A stretch of 64,000 nt of DNA from NCBI GenBank assembly GCA_022703505.1, contig JAKLDN010000003.1, positions 434,001-498,000 on the forward strand. Reading direction: 5' to 3'. The notes beneath the pieces were generated by a model, which was not told where the DNA came from, did not search any database, and worked only from the letters and a program-made list of their open reading frames with translations. The position numbers and the translations under genes were made by a program. This DNA comes from Spirochaetota bacterium (GTDB taxonomy: Bacteria; Spirochaetota; Spirochaetia; Treponematales; UBA12059). Of this stretch, positions 56,962-64,000 are shown piece after piece. Numbering within the stretch: the first letter of the stretch is position 1; the number at the start of each line of letters is the position of its first letter.

Positions 56962-57777
56962 TCAGACTCTGTAGTACGAGGCCATGATCCACTCGTAGGT
57001 ACGGGAAGGCAGGACCCGCTTCAAGGTCATGGCCAGTTTCTGGAATCCCGGGCCGACCATGTACCGGACCCGCAGCCGGTCCTTCCGCAGGAGCCGTTCC
57101 ACGAGGCGAGCCATGACCGCGGGATCGGAGCCGTTCCGCTCCTCCTTCTCCATAACCCCCAGGGAACGTTCCATCGCGGCGGCGTAGGGGCTTCCCGGAG
57201 CCGCGGACTTTTTCCGGGCGTCCGTGAACCCCGTCCTGGTATCCCCGGGCTCCACGATGGCGCAGCGTATTCCGAAGGCCCGGGTTTCCATCCGGAGGGC
57301 CTCGACCAGGCCTTCCAGGGCGAACTTCGCGGCGGAGTACAGGGATTGATAGGGAACCCCCGCCAGGCCCGCCATGGAACCCACCACCAGCACCCGGCCC
57401 CGGCCCGCTGCCCGCATCGCGGGCAGCACGGCCTGGATGGTCCTGAGGGTGCCGAAGAAGTTCGTCTCGAACTGGGCCTTGGCCTCCGCCAGGGGCGTCT
57501 CCTCGACGGGGCCCGCGATGCCGTAGCCGGCGTTGCAGACCACCGCATCGATCCGGCCCTCCCGGTCCAGTATTTCCCGGACAGCCTTCCTCACGGACTG
57601 GTCGTCGGTGACGTCCATGGACAGCAGGATCACCCCCCCGGCTTCCGGCGCCGACGGTTTCCTCCCCGTCCCGTAGACACGGTACGCACGGGCCGCCAGG
57701 CGTTCGGCACAGGCCCTGCCGAGCCCGCTGGTCGCTCCCGTCACGAGGACCACGTCTCCGGATCCCTGTGTTGTCAT
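56962..57777 (-). CDS. Short-chain dehydrogenase/reductase
   Basis: A 271-aa classical SDR. The nucleotide-binding TGATSGLGRA (about residues 13-22), the structural NAGYG, catalytic Ser in VGSMAGLAG and YxxxK in YSAAK are all present, followed by EPGDTRTGF. The first-strand loop (TGRKPS) suggests NADPH. The C terminus is hydrophobic with basic residues and may sit at the membrane. The substrate is unknown. ATG 57777 follows AGGAAGG. It is the last gene of the rnf-murC-yicC strand, converging on the Fn3-like gene. Confidence 0.88.
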   Translation of the reverse strand: MTTQGSGDVVLVTGATSGLGRACAERLAARAYRVYGTGRKPSAPEAGGVILLSMDVTDDQSVRKAVREILDREGRIDAVVCNAGYGIAGPVEETPLAEAKAQFETNFFGTLRTIQAVLPAMRAAGRGRVLVVGSMAGLAGVPYQSLYSAAKFALEGLVEALRMETRAFGIRCAIVEPGDTRTGFTDARKKSAAPGSPYAAAMERSLGVMEKEERNGSDPAVMARLVERLLRKDRLRVRYMVGPGFQKLAMTLKRVLPSRTYEWIMASYYRV

Positions 57778-57809
57778 AATGTACCTTCCTGTCTTGGCTT
57801 TGATCCCGT

Positions 57810-58352
57810 TCAGGGGCAGACGTCCCGTAGACCCTTCACGGCGGTGGCGATGATGTCCACGATCCGATCCGGTCCCAGCCGTTCGGTGTTTATGGACAGG
57901 TCCGCGAAATCGTAGCGGTTGTTGTCGATCCCGTAGAGCTCCGCGTACCGGGCCGTGTCCTGGGCGTCCCGGGATTGGGTGAAGGCCAGGACCTCCTCGT
58001 ACTTCCCGCCTTCCCGGTTCCAGATCCGGCGGGCCCGGGTCTCCGGGGAGGCATGGAGGTAGACCGACAGAGCGGCTTCCGGGATCATCCAGATGGCTAA
58101 GCGGGACCCTATGACGCAGTCCCCCTCCCGGGCCATGGCCACCTGGCGCTGGTCCACCTCCCGGTCCCAGGCCGGGTCGTCCCGGGCCAGCTCCAGCACC
58201 TTCTGGAGGGTTATCCCCCTCTCCGCGGCCAGGCTGCGGAAGGTGAAGTTGATGAGCCGGAGTCCCAGGCGCTCCCTCAGCAGGCCGCTCACCGTGGTGT
58301 TCCCGCAGCCGCTCTTGCCGGACACGGCGATGATAAAGGGCGATCGTTCCAT
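57810..58352 (-). CDS. CMP-kinase-like P-loop protein with Asn in Walker A
   Basis: A 180-aa nucleoside-monophosphate-kinase-like protein. The P-loop reads GKSGCGNTT (residues 12-20), with Asn18 where the catalytic Walker A Lys belongs. INFTFRSLAAERG, DREVDQRQ, VIGSRLAIWMI and a lid-like ETRARRIWNRE follow the archaeal-type cytidylate kinase/Cytidylate_kin2 pattern. A complete cmk already exists fused to S1, so this one may have another substrate. ATG 58352 follows GGGAGGA. It is 14 bases after yicC and 32 bases before the SDR. Confidence 0.75.
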   Translation of the reverse strand: MERSPFIIAVSGKSGCGNTTVSGLLRERLGLRLINFTFRSLAAERGITLQKVLELARDDPAWDREVDQRQVAMAREGDCVIGSRLAIWMIPEAALSVYLHASPETRARRIWNREGGKYEEVLAFTQSRDAQDTARYAELYGIDNNRYDFADLSINTERLGPDRIVDIIATAVKGLRDVCP

Positions 58353-58366
58353 GGCTCCTCCCGGGT

Positions 58367-59230
58367 TCATTCCACGTTCCGGACCTGTTCCCGGACGTTC
58401 TCGATGGCATCCTTCAGGGAGACGACGGCCTCCCCGATCCGGGCCAGGATGTTCTTGGAGCCGATGGTGTTCGCCTCCCGGTTCATCTCCTGGCAGAGGA
58501 AATCCAGCTTCTTCCCGCAGCCCGGGTCCTCCAGGGCCGCGCGGAACGCCGCGACATGGGACCGCAGACGGACGATCTCCTCGTTGATGGTATGCCGGGC
58601 CAGGTAGGAAGCCACCTCCTGCAGGACCCGGTTCTCGTCCGCTTCGCTGCCCAGGACCTCCCGGAACCGCGAGGCGAGGTTTCCCCGGATAGCGGCCTCT
58701 ATGGCCGGCGCCTCCCCTTCCACGACTCCCACGGACTCCTCGATGACGGCGAGCTTGCTCTCTATATCCGCCCGGGTGCTCCGCCCTTCCCGTTCCCGAT
58801 CCCGGTCGAATTCGGCCAGGCACCCGGAGACGGGTTCCTCCAGGGCCGTCCAGGCCGTGTCCGCGTCGATGTTCCGCTCGAAGGTGACGACCCCGTCGAA
58901 GGAGAGGATGTCGGAGAGCCGGAGGGGTTCCCGGATCCCCGCGGCCTCGGCGGCGGTCCGCAGGGCGGACGCGACTTCCGAAGCCGCCGCGGCGTCCACC
59001 AGGACCCGGGGGGGCTCGGAGACCTCCCGGACCCGAAGGGACGCCTCCACCTTGCCGTGGATGACCGATGCGGCTATCGCGTCCCGGAACCGGGATTCCA
59101 GGGCCGCCAGGTACGGAGGCAGGTACACGGAGATCTCGAGGTAGCGGTTGTTGTAGGACTTGATCGTGAGGGAACCCTTCAGGAAGGGGGTCTCGATTTC
59201 CCGGCGCGCGAATCCGGTCATGCTCTTCAT
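58367..59230 (-). CDS. yicC: YicC-family endoribonuclease
   Basis: A 287-aa protein with MKSMTGFAR at the start, SYNNRYLEISVYLP, and the C-terminal DUF1732 block: EEIVRLRSHV-x-F and GKKLDFLCQEMNREANTIGSK. YicC of E. coli is an endoribonuclease affecting small-RNA turnover; the activity here is inferred from family. It overlaps murC by ATGA and precedes the CMP-kinase-like gene, where many bacteria place gmk after yicC; here a different nucleotide-kinase-like protein occupies that place. Confidence 0.93.
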   Translation of the reverse strand: MKSMTGFARREIETPFLKGSLTIKSYNNRYLEISVYLPPYLAALESRFRDAIAASVIHGKVEASLRVREVSEPPRVLVDAAAASEVASALRTAAEAAGIREPLRLSDILSFDGVVTFERNIDADTAWTALEEPVSGCLAEFDRDREREGRSTRADIESKLAVIEESVGVVEGEAPAIEAAIRGNLASRFREVLGSEADENRVLQEVASYLARHTINEEIVRLRSHVAAFRAALEDPGCGKKLDFLCQEMNREANTIGSKNILARIGEAVVSLKDAIENVREQVRNVE

Positions 59231-60732: not shown

Positions 60733-62727
60733 TCATTCCCGGACGCCGAGGGTTATGGATGCTTTCCAGGATGCGTCGGGGCGGAGGGATACGGGCCATT
60801 CCAGGGTAACGGCGCAGCCCTGGTACAAAGGCTCCGCACCCTCCCCGGCGTCGACCGGAGTGTACATCGGGGCCTGGAGGAACCTGCACAGAGGATCCGC
60901 TGAGATCGACAGGGGTTCCTCGGATTCCAAGTCCACAAGGGTCAGGCGGTGGGCCTGGGGGACATCCCCGGGTACGGAGGAGTCCAGCTCCACGGTCCTG
61001 TCCGAAAGCCCCGCGGCCAGCACCAGTTTCTGGGGTCGGGAGGAGGGGCTCAGGTTCAGGTCGCAGGCATAGACGCAGGAAAGGTCGTCGGAGCCCCGGT
61101 TCGTGATGGTGTACCGCACCGTGACTCCCGTCCTCCGGAATTGGAATACTTTCTCCACGGTCACCGGGATCTTGCGCTCCCCCAGGGATACCAGGCCGTC
61201 CCGGATGAGACCGATTTCCTGGTTGGAGCGCTTCAGTTCCCGGACGCTGAAGTAGGAATCCGCGAAGTTGCCCAGGTCCACGGTCCCGCACCGGACGGAC
61301 TCCTCCGGTCCGGACGGCCCGGCCTGGAACCTGTCCAGGAAACATCTGCGACGGGGGCCGAGAGGTCCTGAATACTCCAGCTCCTCGTACCGCCCGAAGG
61401 TGTTGGATAGGTTGCGGGAGGTCTTCAGGGAATCCAGTTCGAACAGCACCCCGCCCCGGGCGTGGAGATAGGCGTTTATATCCGTCCCCTGGAAAAGGAT
61501 CTCCTTGACTCCGTCGAAGTCGATATCCGCCTGGATGATGCCCGAACTGAACGCCCCCTTCTGCCGGGTCGTCTTTTCCGCCTCGATCAGGGCTTCGTAC
61601 ACGGCCCTCCGCAGGGAAAGCCGGTAGATTCCTCCCCCGGGCTTGTACCAGTAGGCGTCCCCGGATTGGCCCCGCCAGAGTTCCTCCTGGGCGGTCTTCT
61701 TACGGGACTTGTCGCCGCGCAGCTGTCCGGTCAGGAGGTGGACGTACTGCATCTTCGCGTAGAGGGAGACTCCCTCCTCGTACCTCAACAGGGGAAGCCG
61801 TATGCCGCCCAGGGAGAGGAATCGCTCGCCCTCCCCGTTCAGGTTCTTCTGGGCCGCCGACCGTTCCCGCTTCAGCCGCGCGCAGAGCCCGGAGGCCAGG
61901 TACCTCTCGGTGGCCCCGCTGGGGAAATAGGTGCGCTTGAAGTGGCGCATGCTCCGCAGGTACCGGGCCGGAGTCACGGTGTCCATGGATAGGGATTCCT
62001 TCCGTATCCCCGTGAAGGTCTTTTCCAGGTACACGTCGGGCGACTCGTAGACGCTTCGCGACCAAAGCCCCTTGACGGCTTCTCCCGCCAGGAAGACCGC
62101 GATCAGGGGATGATCCAGTCCGTGGCGCGTCCGGACGGCTTCCAGGGTCTCCTCCAATCCCAGGGACGTCCCGAAGCTCAGCTGGCAATCGAACACGGGG
62201 TAGACCGCCAGGGCCCTTCCCTGATCCTCGGTCAACACGGGGGCGAAGTATTCGTTCTCCCCGAAGCCGGCCGCCCGGAAATGGGAAACCGGCAGGAAGG
62301 TGAAATCCATCCCCGAGGTCTGGAGCGAGGATGCCAGGGAAGGCTCCCAGGCGTACTCGGGGATCCAGCATCCCCGGGGCCGCCTGCCGAAGTTCTTCCG
62401 GATGAACGTGGTCAGGTACTCGATCTGCCCCAGTCGGTCCGCGTTCGACAGAAGGGGAAGCAGGGGTGCGAAAAAGCCGCCCCCCAGCAGCTCGATCTGC
62501 TTCCGGAGCACCATTTCCTCGAGGAGCATGAGGAATTCGGGATGCCGACTCTCCAGCCAGCGCAGGAGGCTACCGGAATAGTGGATGGAGGCGAAGATGT
62601 CGGGAAAACGATAGAGGACGGACAGGAAGGGGCGGTAGCAGGTCTGGTAGGTTTCCTCGAAGACGGATTCCTCGGTGCCCTCCGGGAGATGGTTGTAGCT
62701 ACCCAACACGAGATGGGTTTTTCTCAT
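60733..62727 (-). CDS. GH57-family protein lacking the acid/base residue
   Basis: A 664-aa protein of the GH57 alpha-amylase/4-alpha-glucanotransferase type with C-terminal DUF1925/1926-like beta domains. The nucleophile motif is kept (CWIPEYAWEP, Glu124), but the motif that should read DDGEKFGxW reads LAGEAVKGLW, so the acid/base Asp is Ala214. By position these match Glu123 and Asp214 of the archaeal 4-alpha-glucanotransferase as I remember it. It may be a glucan-binding pseudo-enzyme or use other chemistry. There is no signal peptide. It lies between rnfB and murC on one strand. Confidence 0.8.
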   Translation of the reverse strand: MRKTHLVLGSYNHLPEGTEESVFEETYQTCYRPFLSVLYRFPDIFASIHYSGSLLRWLESRHPEFLMLLEEMVLRKQIELLGGGFFAPLLPLLSNADRLGQIEYLTTFIRKNFGRRPRGCWIPEYAWEPSLASSLQTSGMDFTFLPVSHFRAAGFGENEYFAPVLTEDQGRALAVYPVFDCQLSFGTSLGLEETLEAVRTRHGLDHPLIAVFLAGEAVKGLWSRSVYESPDVYLEKTFTGIRKESLSMDTVTPARYLRSMRHFKRTYFPSGATERYLASGLCARLKRERSAAQKNLNGEGERFLSLGGIRLPLLRYEEGVSLYAKMQYVHLLTGQLRGDKSRKKTAQEELWRGQSGDAYWYKPGGGIYRLSLRRAVYEALIEAEKTTRQKGAFSSGIIQADIDFDGVKEILFQGTDINAYLHARGGVLFELDSLKTSRNLSNTFGRYEELEYSGPLGPRRRCFLDRFQAGPSGPEESVRCGTVDLGNFADSYFSVRELKRSNQEIGLIRDGLVSLGERKIPVTVEKVFQFRRTGVTVRYTITNRGSDDLSCVYACDLNLSPSSRPQKLVLAAGLSDRTVELDSSVPGDVPQAHRLTLVDLESEEPLSISADPLCRFLQAPMYTPVDAGEGAEPLYQGCAVTLEWPVSLRPDASWKASITLGVRE

Positions 62728-62781: not shown

Positions 62782-63609
62782 TTATAATCCACCGCCCCTG
62801 GTTCCGAAAGATCCGGCGTCCTTTTTTTCCGCCCCCAGGGTCCGGATGACTCTTGTCGGGCAGTCCTCCGCGATGGCCGCCCAGTTGCCGGTGGCGTTGT
62901 AGGAAGCCACGGCCAGGTTGTTCTTGAGGGAGAACTCGCTTCCCGCGGACCTTCGCTCGCAGGCCCCGCAGGCCGTGCAGGAGGCGGCGCAGGAATCCTC
63001 CTTCACCTTTCCGGGGGCCGTGGACGAGCAGGCCACGTACCAGGCATCCCTGCGCGGAAGCATGCGGATGACACCGGTCGGACACGCCGCGACGCAGGAC
63101 CCGCAGCCGTCGCACAGGTCCGGACGGATCTCCGCGAGTCCGTTCCTCACGGCGATCGCGTCGTTCGGGCAGGCGGGGACACAATTACCGTAGCCGAGAC
63201 AGCCGGAGCCGCAGGCCCGCGGGCCCCCGTACAGCCCCGCCGCGGCCGCGCAGTCCCGGTACCCGGCGTACTCGAAGGTCGGCCGTACCGCGCGTTCATC
63301 CCCCGCGCAGGCCACGACCGCTCGGGCCTTTCCGTTCTTCTTTCGGTAGGGGGCCCTTCCCAGGACGGCGGTCAGGCGCCGTTCCACCGGGGCGCCCCCG
63401 GGGATGCACCGGGAATCCACGGGCCCCGCCGCCAGGACCCGTGCGAAGGACTTGCAGTCGTCCTGGCCGCAGAGGCCGCAGTCCCAGGCCGGCAGGCTCG
63501 CGAGGGTGTTGACGACTAGGGAATCCACGCGCGCCCGCTTGAGGGAGGACAGGATGTAGGACCCCGCCGCGAAGAACACGAAGGAGACCCCGAACAGGGC
63601 CGCAAGCAT
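62782..63609 (-). CDS. rnfB: RnfB-like ferredoxin subunit of the Rnf complex
   Basis: A 275-aa subunit carrying electrons from ferredoxin in the ion-pumping Rnf complex. There is an N-terminal membrane helix (LAALFGVSFVFFAAGSYIL), a 4Fe-4S domain (CGLCGQDDCKSFARVLAAG, residues about 42-60), then ferredoxin-type clusters CGSGCLGYGNCVPACP and CDGCGSCVAACPTGVI, and an extra Cys group (CAASCTACGACERR). ATG 63609 has GAGGA 5 bases upstream; GTG 63621 is possible. It follows rnfA by 14 bases. Confidence 0.88.
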   Translation of the reverse strand: MLAALFGVSFVFFAAGSYILSSLKRARVDSLVVNTLASLPAWDCGLCGQDDCKSFARVLAAGPVDSRCIPGGAPVERRLTAVLGRAPYRKKNGKARAVVACAGDERAVRPTFEYAGYRDCAAAAGLYGGPRACGSGCLGYGNCVPACPNDAIAVRNGLAEIRPDLCDGCGSCVAACPTGVIRMLPRRDAWYVACSSTAPGKVKEDSCAASCTACGACERRSAGSEFSLKNNLAVASYNATGNWAAIAEDCPTRVIRTLGAEKKDAGSFGTRGGGL

Positions 63610-63623
63610 TTCTGTCCTCACGA

Positions 63624-64000
63624 CTACCCCGCGATCCTGGAAACCAGGATTTGGTCTATTCCGGACACGGCCATGGCCATGAGACCCGCGGACAGGAACC
63701 GGAGGGGCGCGCCCTTCAGCGCGGGCGGCACATCCTCCATCTCCAGCCGACGCAATATTCGATCCAGCAGGACCACGGCGCACCACCACCCCGCGGCCGC
63801 GGCGAATCCGGCCGCTGCGGCTTCCGCCATCGTGAAGCCCCCCCGTGCCGCGGACAGGGAGGCGGCGTACACGACGCAGCTGTGGACCTGTTCCTTTGCG
63901 ATCCGCCCCGCTTCTGCGAAGGGGCCGGAGCCGGCAGCCAGAACCGAGGCCAGGGAGTACAGGAGGGTCACGACGACAAGTACATAGGAAAGAGGTTCGA
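63624..64000 (-). CDS. rnfA: RnfA-like membrane subunit, 5' end outside window
   Basis: The C-terminal 125 residues of an RnfA/NqrE-type integral membrane subunit; the frame stays open to the window edge, so the start is missing. The EDVPPALKGAPLRFLSAGLMAMAVSGI end matches RnfA. At the place of the conserved TTNCAV motif, whose Cys lies close to an iron-sulfur centre, the sequence reads VHSCVV: Cys kept, Asn lost. It is followed by rnfB after 14 bases. Other rnf genes would lie beyond the window. Confidence 0.75.
   Translation of the reverse strand, partial: EPLSYVLVVVTLLYSLASVLAAGSGPFAEAGRIAKEQVHSCVVYAASLSAARGGFTMAEAAAAGFAAAAGWWCAVVLLDRILRRLEMEDVPPALKGAPLRFLSAGLMAMAVSGIDQILVSRIAG

Follow-up and report, generated by a model that had tools for sequence, protein, structure and literature searches.

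What does a protein built like a glucan-remodelling enzyme do once its acid/base aspartate has been replaced and its gene stands in line with those of an electron-transfer pump? The question is raised by a gene in a 64,000-nucleotide stretch of DNA (the window) from a Spirochaetota bacterium (GenBank assembly GCA_022703505.1, contig JAKLDN010000003.1, positions 434,001 to 498,000 of the forward strand). The gene, which we call GH57L, is an intact open reading frame (ORF) with an ATG start and a single terminal stop; its product of 664 amino acids (labelled P0001) resembles glycoside hydrolase family 57 (GH57). We find that its relatives in the class Spirochaetia are, with few exceptions, encoded downstream of genes of the Rnf complex (RnfABCDGE), and that many of them lack catalytic residues. 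The reading that we favor, and to which we give about half of our belief, is that GH57L is a pseudoenzyme recruited to the Rnf pump of spirochaetes, with which it would be physically associated, in an accessory, assembly or regulatory role. Genomes, contigs, loci and families carry our own labels (e.g., G317, C12, L098, f72). The features on which the argument turns are these:

60733..62727, minus strand: GH57L, probable GH57-like pseudoenzyme of 664 amino acids (ORF, Pfam, structure model)
Parts of GH57L, in residues: GH57 barrel, approximately 1-265; helical region, approximately 270-390; beta-sandwich domain, approximately 394-664
62356..62358, minus strand: codon of Glu124, aligned with the nucleophile Glu123 of T. 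litoralis 4-alpha-glucanotransferase (TLGT) (position computed from the ORF start)
62086..62088, minus strand: codon of Ala214, opposite the acid/base Asp214 of TLGT (family alignment)

GH57L is a GH57-derived protein of the 4-alpha-glucanotransferase branch and is predicted to have the three-part fold of that branch. Pfam PF03065, PF09094 and PF09095, which describe the three parts of 4-alpha-glucanotransferase-type GH57 proteins, all score above cut-off, and the sole solved sequence matched is that of TLGT (1k1w, E 2.3e-56); no NCBIfam model matches at E 0.001. The kinship with GH57 that the first-pass annotation had read from the letters alone extends to the predicted structure. The AlphaFold model (predicted local distance difference test score, pLDDT, 92.8; predicted template modelling score, pTM, 0.93) matches 1k1x_A over its whole length in Foldseek (TM 0.86/0.89) and 1k1x_B in VIA with a Z of 39.4 (root-mean-square deviation 2.5, 611 residues, 26% identity), and its C-terminal domain has a galactose-mutarotase fold (Z up to 20.5). 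The TLGT-like fold is retained in the model of a divergent homologue from genome G056 (pLDDT 88.6, Z 31.4 over 554 residues).

Within this shared fold, GH57L keeps the nucleophile Glu of TLGT (PDB 1k1w, 1k1x, 1k1y) but differs in that Asp214, Asp213 and His11 are replaced, the HDDGEKFG motif is gone, and the gene lies beside rnf. Both catalytic observations of the first-pass annotation, a nucleophile present as Glu124 and an acid/base Asp replaced, stand. Glu124 aligns with TLGT Glu123; Asp214 falls opposite Ala214 in the family alignment (Asp213 opposite Leu) and opposite Gly215 in the pairwise alignment with TLGT (Asp213 opposite Ala214). In both alignments the acid/base place has no Asp and the local motif reads LAGEAVKG; the position of His11 is Tyr. 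P0001 retains Glu79, Trp at TLGT 120, Glu124, Glu216 and Trp at TLGT 357. Apart from the two catalytic residues, we take these and similar positions (Glu79, Trp120, Trp357, etc.) to line the sugar site of TLGT. Judged by its residues, GH57L is probably a pseudoenzyme, with Glu216 as a candidate substitute acid. The model predicts a strand at residues 208-214, consistent with the placement of the GH57 proton donor on a barrel strand given in the available parts of PMC6037648.

Is the loss peculiar to this protein? A search of the phylum (296 genomes) gave matches in 143, and a profile search of the class was positive in 337 of 394 genomes and 121 of 132 genera; the profile is weak on the very divergent members of family f12, where absences mean little. 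We collected 119 class loci, left out four with an ORF below 450 amino acids, and aligned the remaining 115 proteins with 34 from outside the class and TLGT (150 rows). Among the 115, the Glu is missing in 79, the Asp in 89 and both in 64, while 11 have both; the Asp loss is thus common to homologues. In the window's own order (n = 60, including four named relatives that we assigned to it), 41 proteins lack both residues, 13 have the Glu only, six have the Asp only, and none has both. All 34 aligned outside proteins retain His11, His13, Glu79, Glu123 and the DDGE motif (Asp354 of TLGT was excluded as a test residue, being Cys in the 34). The outside family f24 is presumably Brachyspira.

Could GH57L still be an enzyme, with Glu216, two residues after Ala214, or a residue from elsewhere as proton donor? 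P0001 keeps the nucleophile, TLGT position 216 is Glu in 46 and Asp in 22 of the 115 class members, and the 11 proteins with both Glu123 and Asp214 point the same way. The counts for the window's own order argue against it, as do the five f72 proteins, in which decay is least advanced: every one has Ser at His13 and two have Asn at 214 (motif IDDGEKFG in G317, DDGEKFG in G433, DNGEKFG in G379 and G389, EDGAKFG in G417). We regard continued catalysis as very improbable.

A related idea is that the protein binds sugar or glucan without cutting it and signals the state of the carbon supply, perhaps to Rnf, with the operon as the link between the two. The five retained residues of P0001 speak for such a sensor, as does the C-terminal domain, whose fold is a sugar-handling one, and sugar binding, one half of the carbohydrate-binding regulator proposed in the first-pass annotation, may occur in the window species. 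Across the class, however, only Glu79 is nearly constant (110 of 115); the other positions persist in roughly half of the members at most (Trp120 in 58, Trp357 in 42, Glu123 in 36, His13 in 28, Asp214 in 26 and His11 in 19). The sugar site is the varying part of the family, so neither glucan binding nor catalysis is a likely family-wide role, and we think the sensor unlikely.

What has largely stayed constant is the gene order. Of the 110 class loci that have 4.5 kb or more of upstream DNA, 102 carry rnfC and rnfD upstream of GH57L on the same strand, and the gene immediately before it is rnfB (68 loci), rnfA (33) or rnfD (1). The linkage was seen in 68 of 73 loci picked by their GH57L match before the class-wide RnfC coordinates were seen, in 34 of 37 picked later, and in all 11 loci of a final batch that had enough upstream DNA. 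Identity to P0001 in these proteins falls to 23% (alignment A1), which indicates that the order is old. None of the 34 outside loci (20 with 4.5 kb upstream) has rnfA, rnfB, rnfD or rnfE; of 20 outside genomes tested, 19 have RnfD, and in all 19 its gene is either on a different contig from the GH57 gene or separated from it by over 0.5 Mb. An ancestral linkage outside the class was considered for loci L118-L122 and rejected: their rnfC-profile matches reach just 73-81 bits, in ORFs of approximately 709 codons about 2 kb downstream of GH57, without rnfD. We take these ORFs to encode a NuoF- or HydB-like protein and did not count them as Rnf.

The two systems also occur together. Among 358 class genomes outside family f6 (which we take to be Borrelia), at E 1e-10, both GH57L and RnfC are found in 335, RnfC only in 15, GH57L only in two, and neither in six (Fisher p 5e-7, kinship ignored). 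Scoring of every candidate upheld the six joint absences and the two odd cases: RnfC gave no match of any kind in four f60 genomes, and just weak partial ones in G328, G363 and G505. In G437, rnfB stands beside GH57L on a short contig, so that RnfC is probably missing from the assembly. Within f6, two small genomes without a GH57L or RnfD match, G076 (C1:66861-67844, L146) and G237 (C1:75297-76292, L147), have a weak RnfC-like stretch in an ORF of 771-777 amino acids.

Which came first, the linkage or the loss? We built a quick tree from 104 of the 150 alignment rows, after removing near-identical and short rows; support is weak for one third of its inner branches, and long branches lead to some rows. 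The class proteins form a single clade (Shimodaira-Hasegawa-like approximate likelihood ratio test, SH-aLRT, 100). The Rnf-linked G317, which keeps Glu123, is sister to the remaining class proteins (support 91). As this sister is both Rnf-linked and least decayed, the linkage precedes most of the catalytic loss. On this tree the gene entered the Rnf operon before or during the loosening of the active site, which then decayed many times, the fewest changes being 11 at Glu123 and 21 at Asp214.

The gene is under purifying selection. Using our own NG86 script, we compared GH57L with two relatives (L033 and L034) and took the ratio of nonsynonymous to synonymous divergence (dN/dS) from dN and dS. 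It is approximately 0.11-0.12 for GH57L (0.086/0.805 and 0.108/0.899), compared with 0.38 and 0.22 for rnfB and 0.19 and 0.12 for murC. We reject a pseudogene on the strength of these ratios and because nearly every listed homologue has an open reading frame; the first-pass annotation was right to call the gene full-length and not decaying. The lowest dN among the three parts tested is that of residues 311-390, which include the following segment:

61681..61716, minus strand: GDKSRKKTAQEE, residues 338-349, within the slowest-evolving part (alignment, dN)

A GDKxRK-type pattern occurs in 64 of 115 class proteins versus 0 of 34 outside, and GKRPR in 43 of 115 versus 0 of 34. Single positions kept in the class and not in the outside set are R110 (0.97; also Arg in TLGT), R116 (0.90), D339 (0.90), K340 (0.84) and R388 (0.83). 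As the GKRPR loop precedes strand 4, it would lie at the barrel's bottom, on the side facing away from the former active site.

Taken together, the linkage, the six shared absences and the newly conserved positions fit a scaffold, assembly or regulatory role toward Rnf. We envisage that, in an ancestor of the sampled class, a 4-alpha-glucanotransferase-type GH57 gene joined the Rnf operon as its final member, and that its product would then have lost catalytic residues repeatedly while retaining the three-part fold. GH57L would act in the cytoplasm on the electron-transfer pump, docking through class-conserved surfaces, one at the GKRPR loop that precedes strand 4 and the other at the helix region carrying RGDKxRKK. 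No signal sequence was seen in GH57L by eye, without use of a predictor. A loose parallel is found in the chloroplast NDH-PSI supercomplex, where a mutarotase-like chain (9grx chain 2, 7wff chain b) has a beta-sandwich fold like that of GH57L residues 394-664 (Z 18.7 and 18.5) and belongs to an electron-transport complex. This is an analogy of fold only, from which we claim no kinship, and the scores of several sugar enzymes equal or exceed these. We take that chain to be subunit PnsB2, a non-catalytic mutarotase homologue.

Several observations weigh against a recruitment to Rnf. GH57L is not confined to Rnf: in eight of the 110 loci it lies away from rnf (G049, G138, G142, G288, G130, G371, G475 and G412; the matches in G475 and G412 are weak, 227 and 63 bits). 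G130, which has no linked-type rnf cluster, carries DUF212, a gene for a protein that we call X, and GH57L in a row with no rnf genes between, and its only strong RnfC is in another cluster. Conversely, no GH57L match was obtained in G246, which carries a divergent rnfC-rnfD pair, G308 has RnfC and no GH57L, and the 15 genomes with RnfC only, several of them incomplete, had no GH57L match at the threshold. Rnf is present more than once in many genomes, and counting RnfC does not reveal which copy is linked; the loci are spread over families and are not a random draw. Finally, a long same-strand operon order can persist through co-expression, for which contact is not needed. Might GH57L then be an independent protein, its function unrelated to Rnf, held in place for expression? 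The unlinked loci, G130 above all, would be explained, and DUF212 and rluA, without an obvious role in Rnf, lie nearby too. Class-wide linkage at low identity and joint absence in six genomes outside f6 are harder to reconcile with a mere bystander, and we find this explanation rather doubtful.

Is GH57L simply one of the GH57 proteins already known to lack catalytic residues? These have been surveyed in PMC6037648, whose authors we take to be Martinovicova and Janecek (2018). The available parts of that paper describe 4-alpha-glucanotransferase-like proteins, bacterial only and close to the 4-alpha-glucanotransferases, that are without one or both catalytic residues. GH57L resembles them in its lost residue; operon context, order of loss, distribution in the class and linkage to Rnf are not treated in those parts. 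That GH57L is an ordinary member for which Rnf is nothing special seems to us most improbable. GH57 proteins without catalytic residues are thus already in print, while our searches of an open-access collection, which omits most subscription journals, gave no report of a GH57-Rnf linkage. We know of no GH57-type subunit defined for Rnf. Although Rnf is the operon partner of GH57L, the accessible text of PMC7512555 gives it no GH57-type subunit and mentions no GH57-type partner in discussing the noncanonical treponemal Rnf; PMC6011919, in the part available, tabulates GH57 and the Rnf complex separately.

The window's genome has a second GH57 protein (L002:694-2538, minus strand, on G000:C11), of the branching-enzyme type with a BE_C domain. 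Its nucleophile motif reads WLPQLGW, with Gln at a place where we take Glu to be expected, and it may be a second inactive GH57 by this motif.

The neighbors of GH57L are as follows:

62782..63789, minus strand: rnfB-type Fe-S protein gene of the Rnf complex, directly upstream of GH57L (library matches)
63624..64000, minus strand: rnfA, cut by the window edge; the contig beyond the edge is L098
59227..60717, minus strand: murC, 15 bases downstream of GH57L
58367..59230, minus strand: yicC-type endoribonuclease gene, with a 4-base overlap with the end of murC
L098:11785-13341, minus strand: protein X, a 519-amino-acid ORF before rnfC on contig G000:C8, upstream of the window edge (iterated profile)

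The contig order is rluA (opposite strand), DUF212, X, rnfC, rnfD, the rnfG slot, rnfE, rnfA, rnfB, GH57L, murC and yicC. The tight same-strand arrangement with rnfB and murC noted in the first-pass annotation is real (54 bases from the end of rnfB to the start of GH57L, 15 from its stop to murC). The link to wall or storage-glucan metabolism proposed along with it does not hold as a general rule: murC is directly downstream in just nine of the 119 class loci (eight by a 1-kb rule, plus G063 with an overlapping stop-to-stop murC ORF), and the sugar site is not conserved. With such a count, murC is a local neighbor and the Rnf operon the lasting partner. Behind yicC, window positions 56962-58823 (minus strand) hold a cytidylate-kinase-like gene and, by eye, a short-chain-dehydrogenase-like sequence; the listed ORFs overlap, and gene boundaries near 57800-58410 are ill-defined.

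Protein X (approximately 500 amino acids and, by eye, a membrane protein) has no Pfam match; the iterated profile detects it in 80 loci. Under a strict distance rule, it stands immediately before rnfC in 56 of the 69 loci whose flank is long enough; L098 and L099 also have it there, though missed by that rule. No Pfam family matched an alignment of 16 members at an E below 0.19. In the rnfG slot, between rnfD and rnfE/rnfA, neither an SGATxT-type motif (presumably for flavin attachment) nor ETPGLG is present in 57 of 57 own-order loci, while at least one of the two is present in 36 of 48 other class loci; the scan covered ORFs of at least 100 amino acids, and some loci are thus untested. Apparent large N-terminal extensions of RnfC and RnfD were dismissed as ORF artefacts, the matches beginning at residue 239 of 676 (rnfC) and 142 of 496 (rnfD).

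The window's genome has more than one Rnf. Canonical RnfC and RnfD are on C12 (507 and 281 bits), the GH57L-linked pair, at 282 and 206 bits, is divergent, and C1 holds a third match of the RnfD type; in some other families the linked RnfC scores high (e.g., G311, 539 bits). In G056 (1,139,633 bp), the linked cluster beside GH57L, with weak scores, is the sole RnfC/RnfD found. The size and gene order of G056 fit Treponema pallidum. In the part of PMC4403809 available, TPASS_0151 is RnfD, 0153 an acid phosphatase/haloperoxidase-like protein and 0154 an RNA pseudouridylate synthase; this is the order of L038, if 0153 is taken as the DUF212 gene. The GH57L of that organism would be TP0147, a tag for which we found no paper in the open-access collection searched.

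We consider it possible, though somewhat short of probable, that in this class an enzyme for glucan remodelling was turned into a non-catalytic subunit or an assembly factor dedicated to Rnf, together with protein X, and that in the reduced, treponeme-like G056 it forms part of the energy-conserving machinery. If true, an unrecognised Rnf partner would be named in spirochaetes, including the 1.14-Mb genome G056. In the accessible text of PMC7512555, the Rnf pump proposed for T. pallidum is described as atypical and noncanonical and has been hard to explain. The class itself offers a gradation of states, with DDGEKFG at one end and full loss of the site at the other, and with it a natural experiment in the passage from enzyme to non-enzyme inside an operon.
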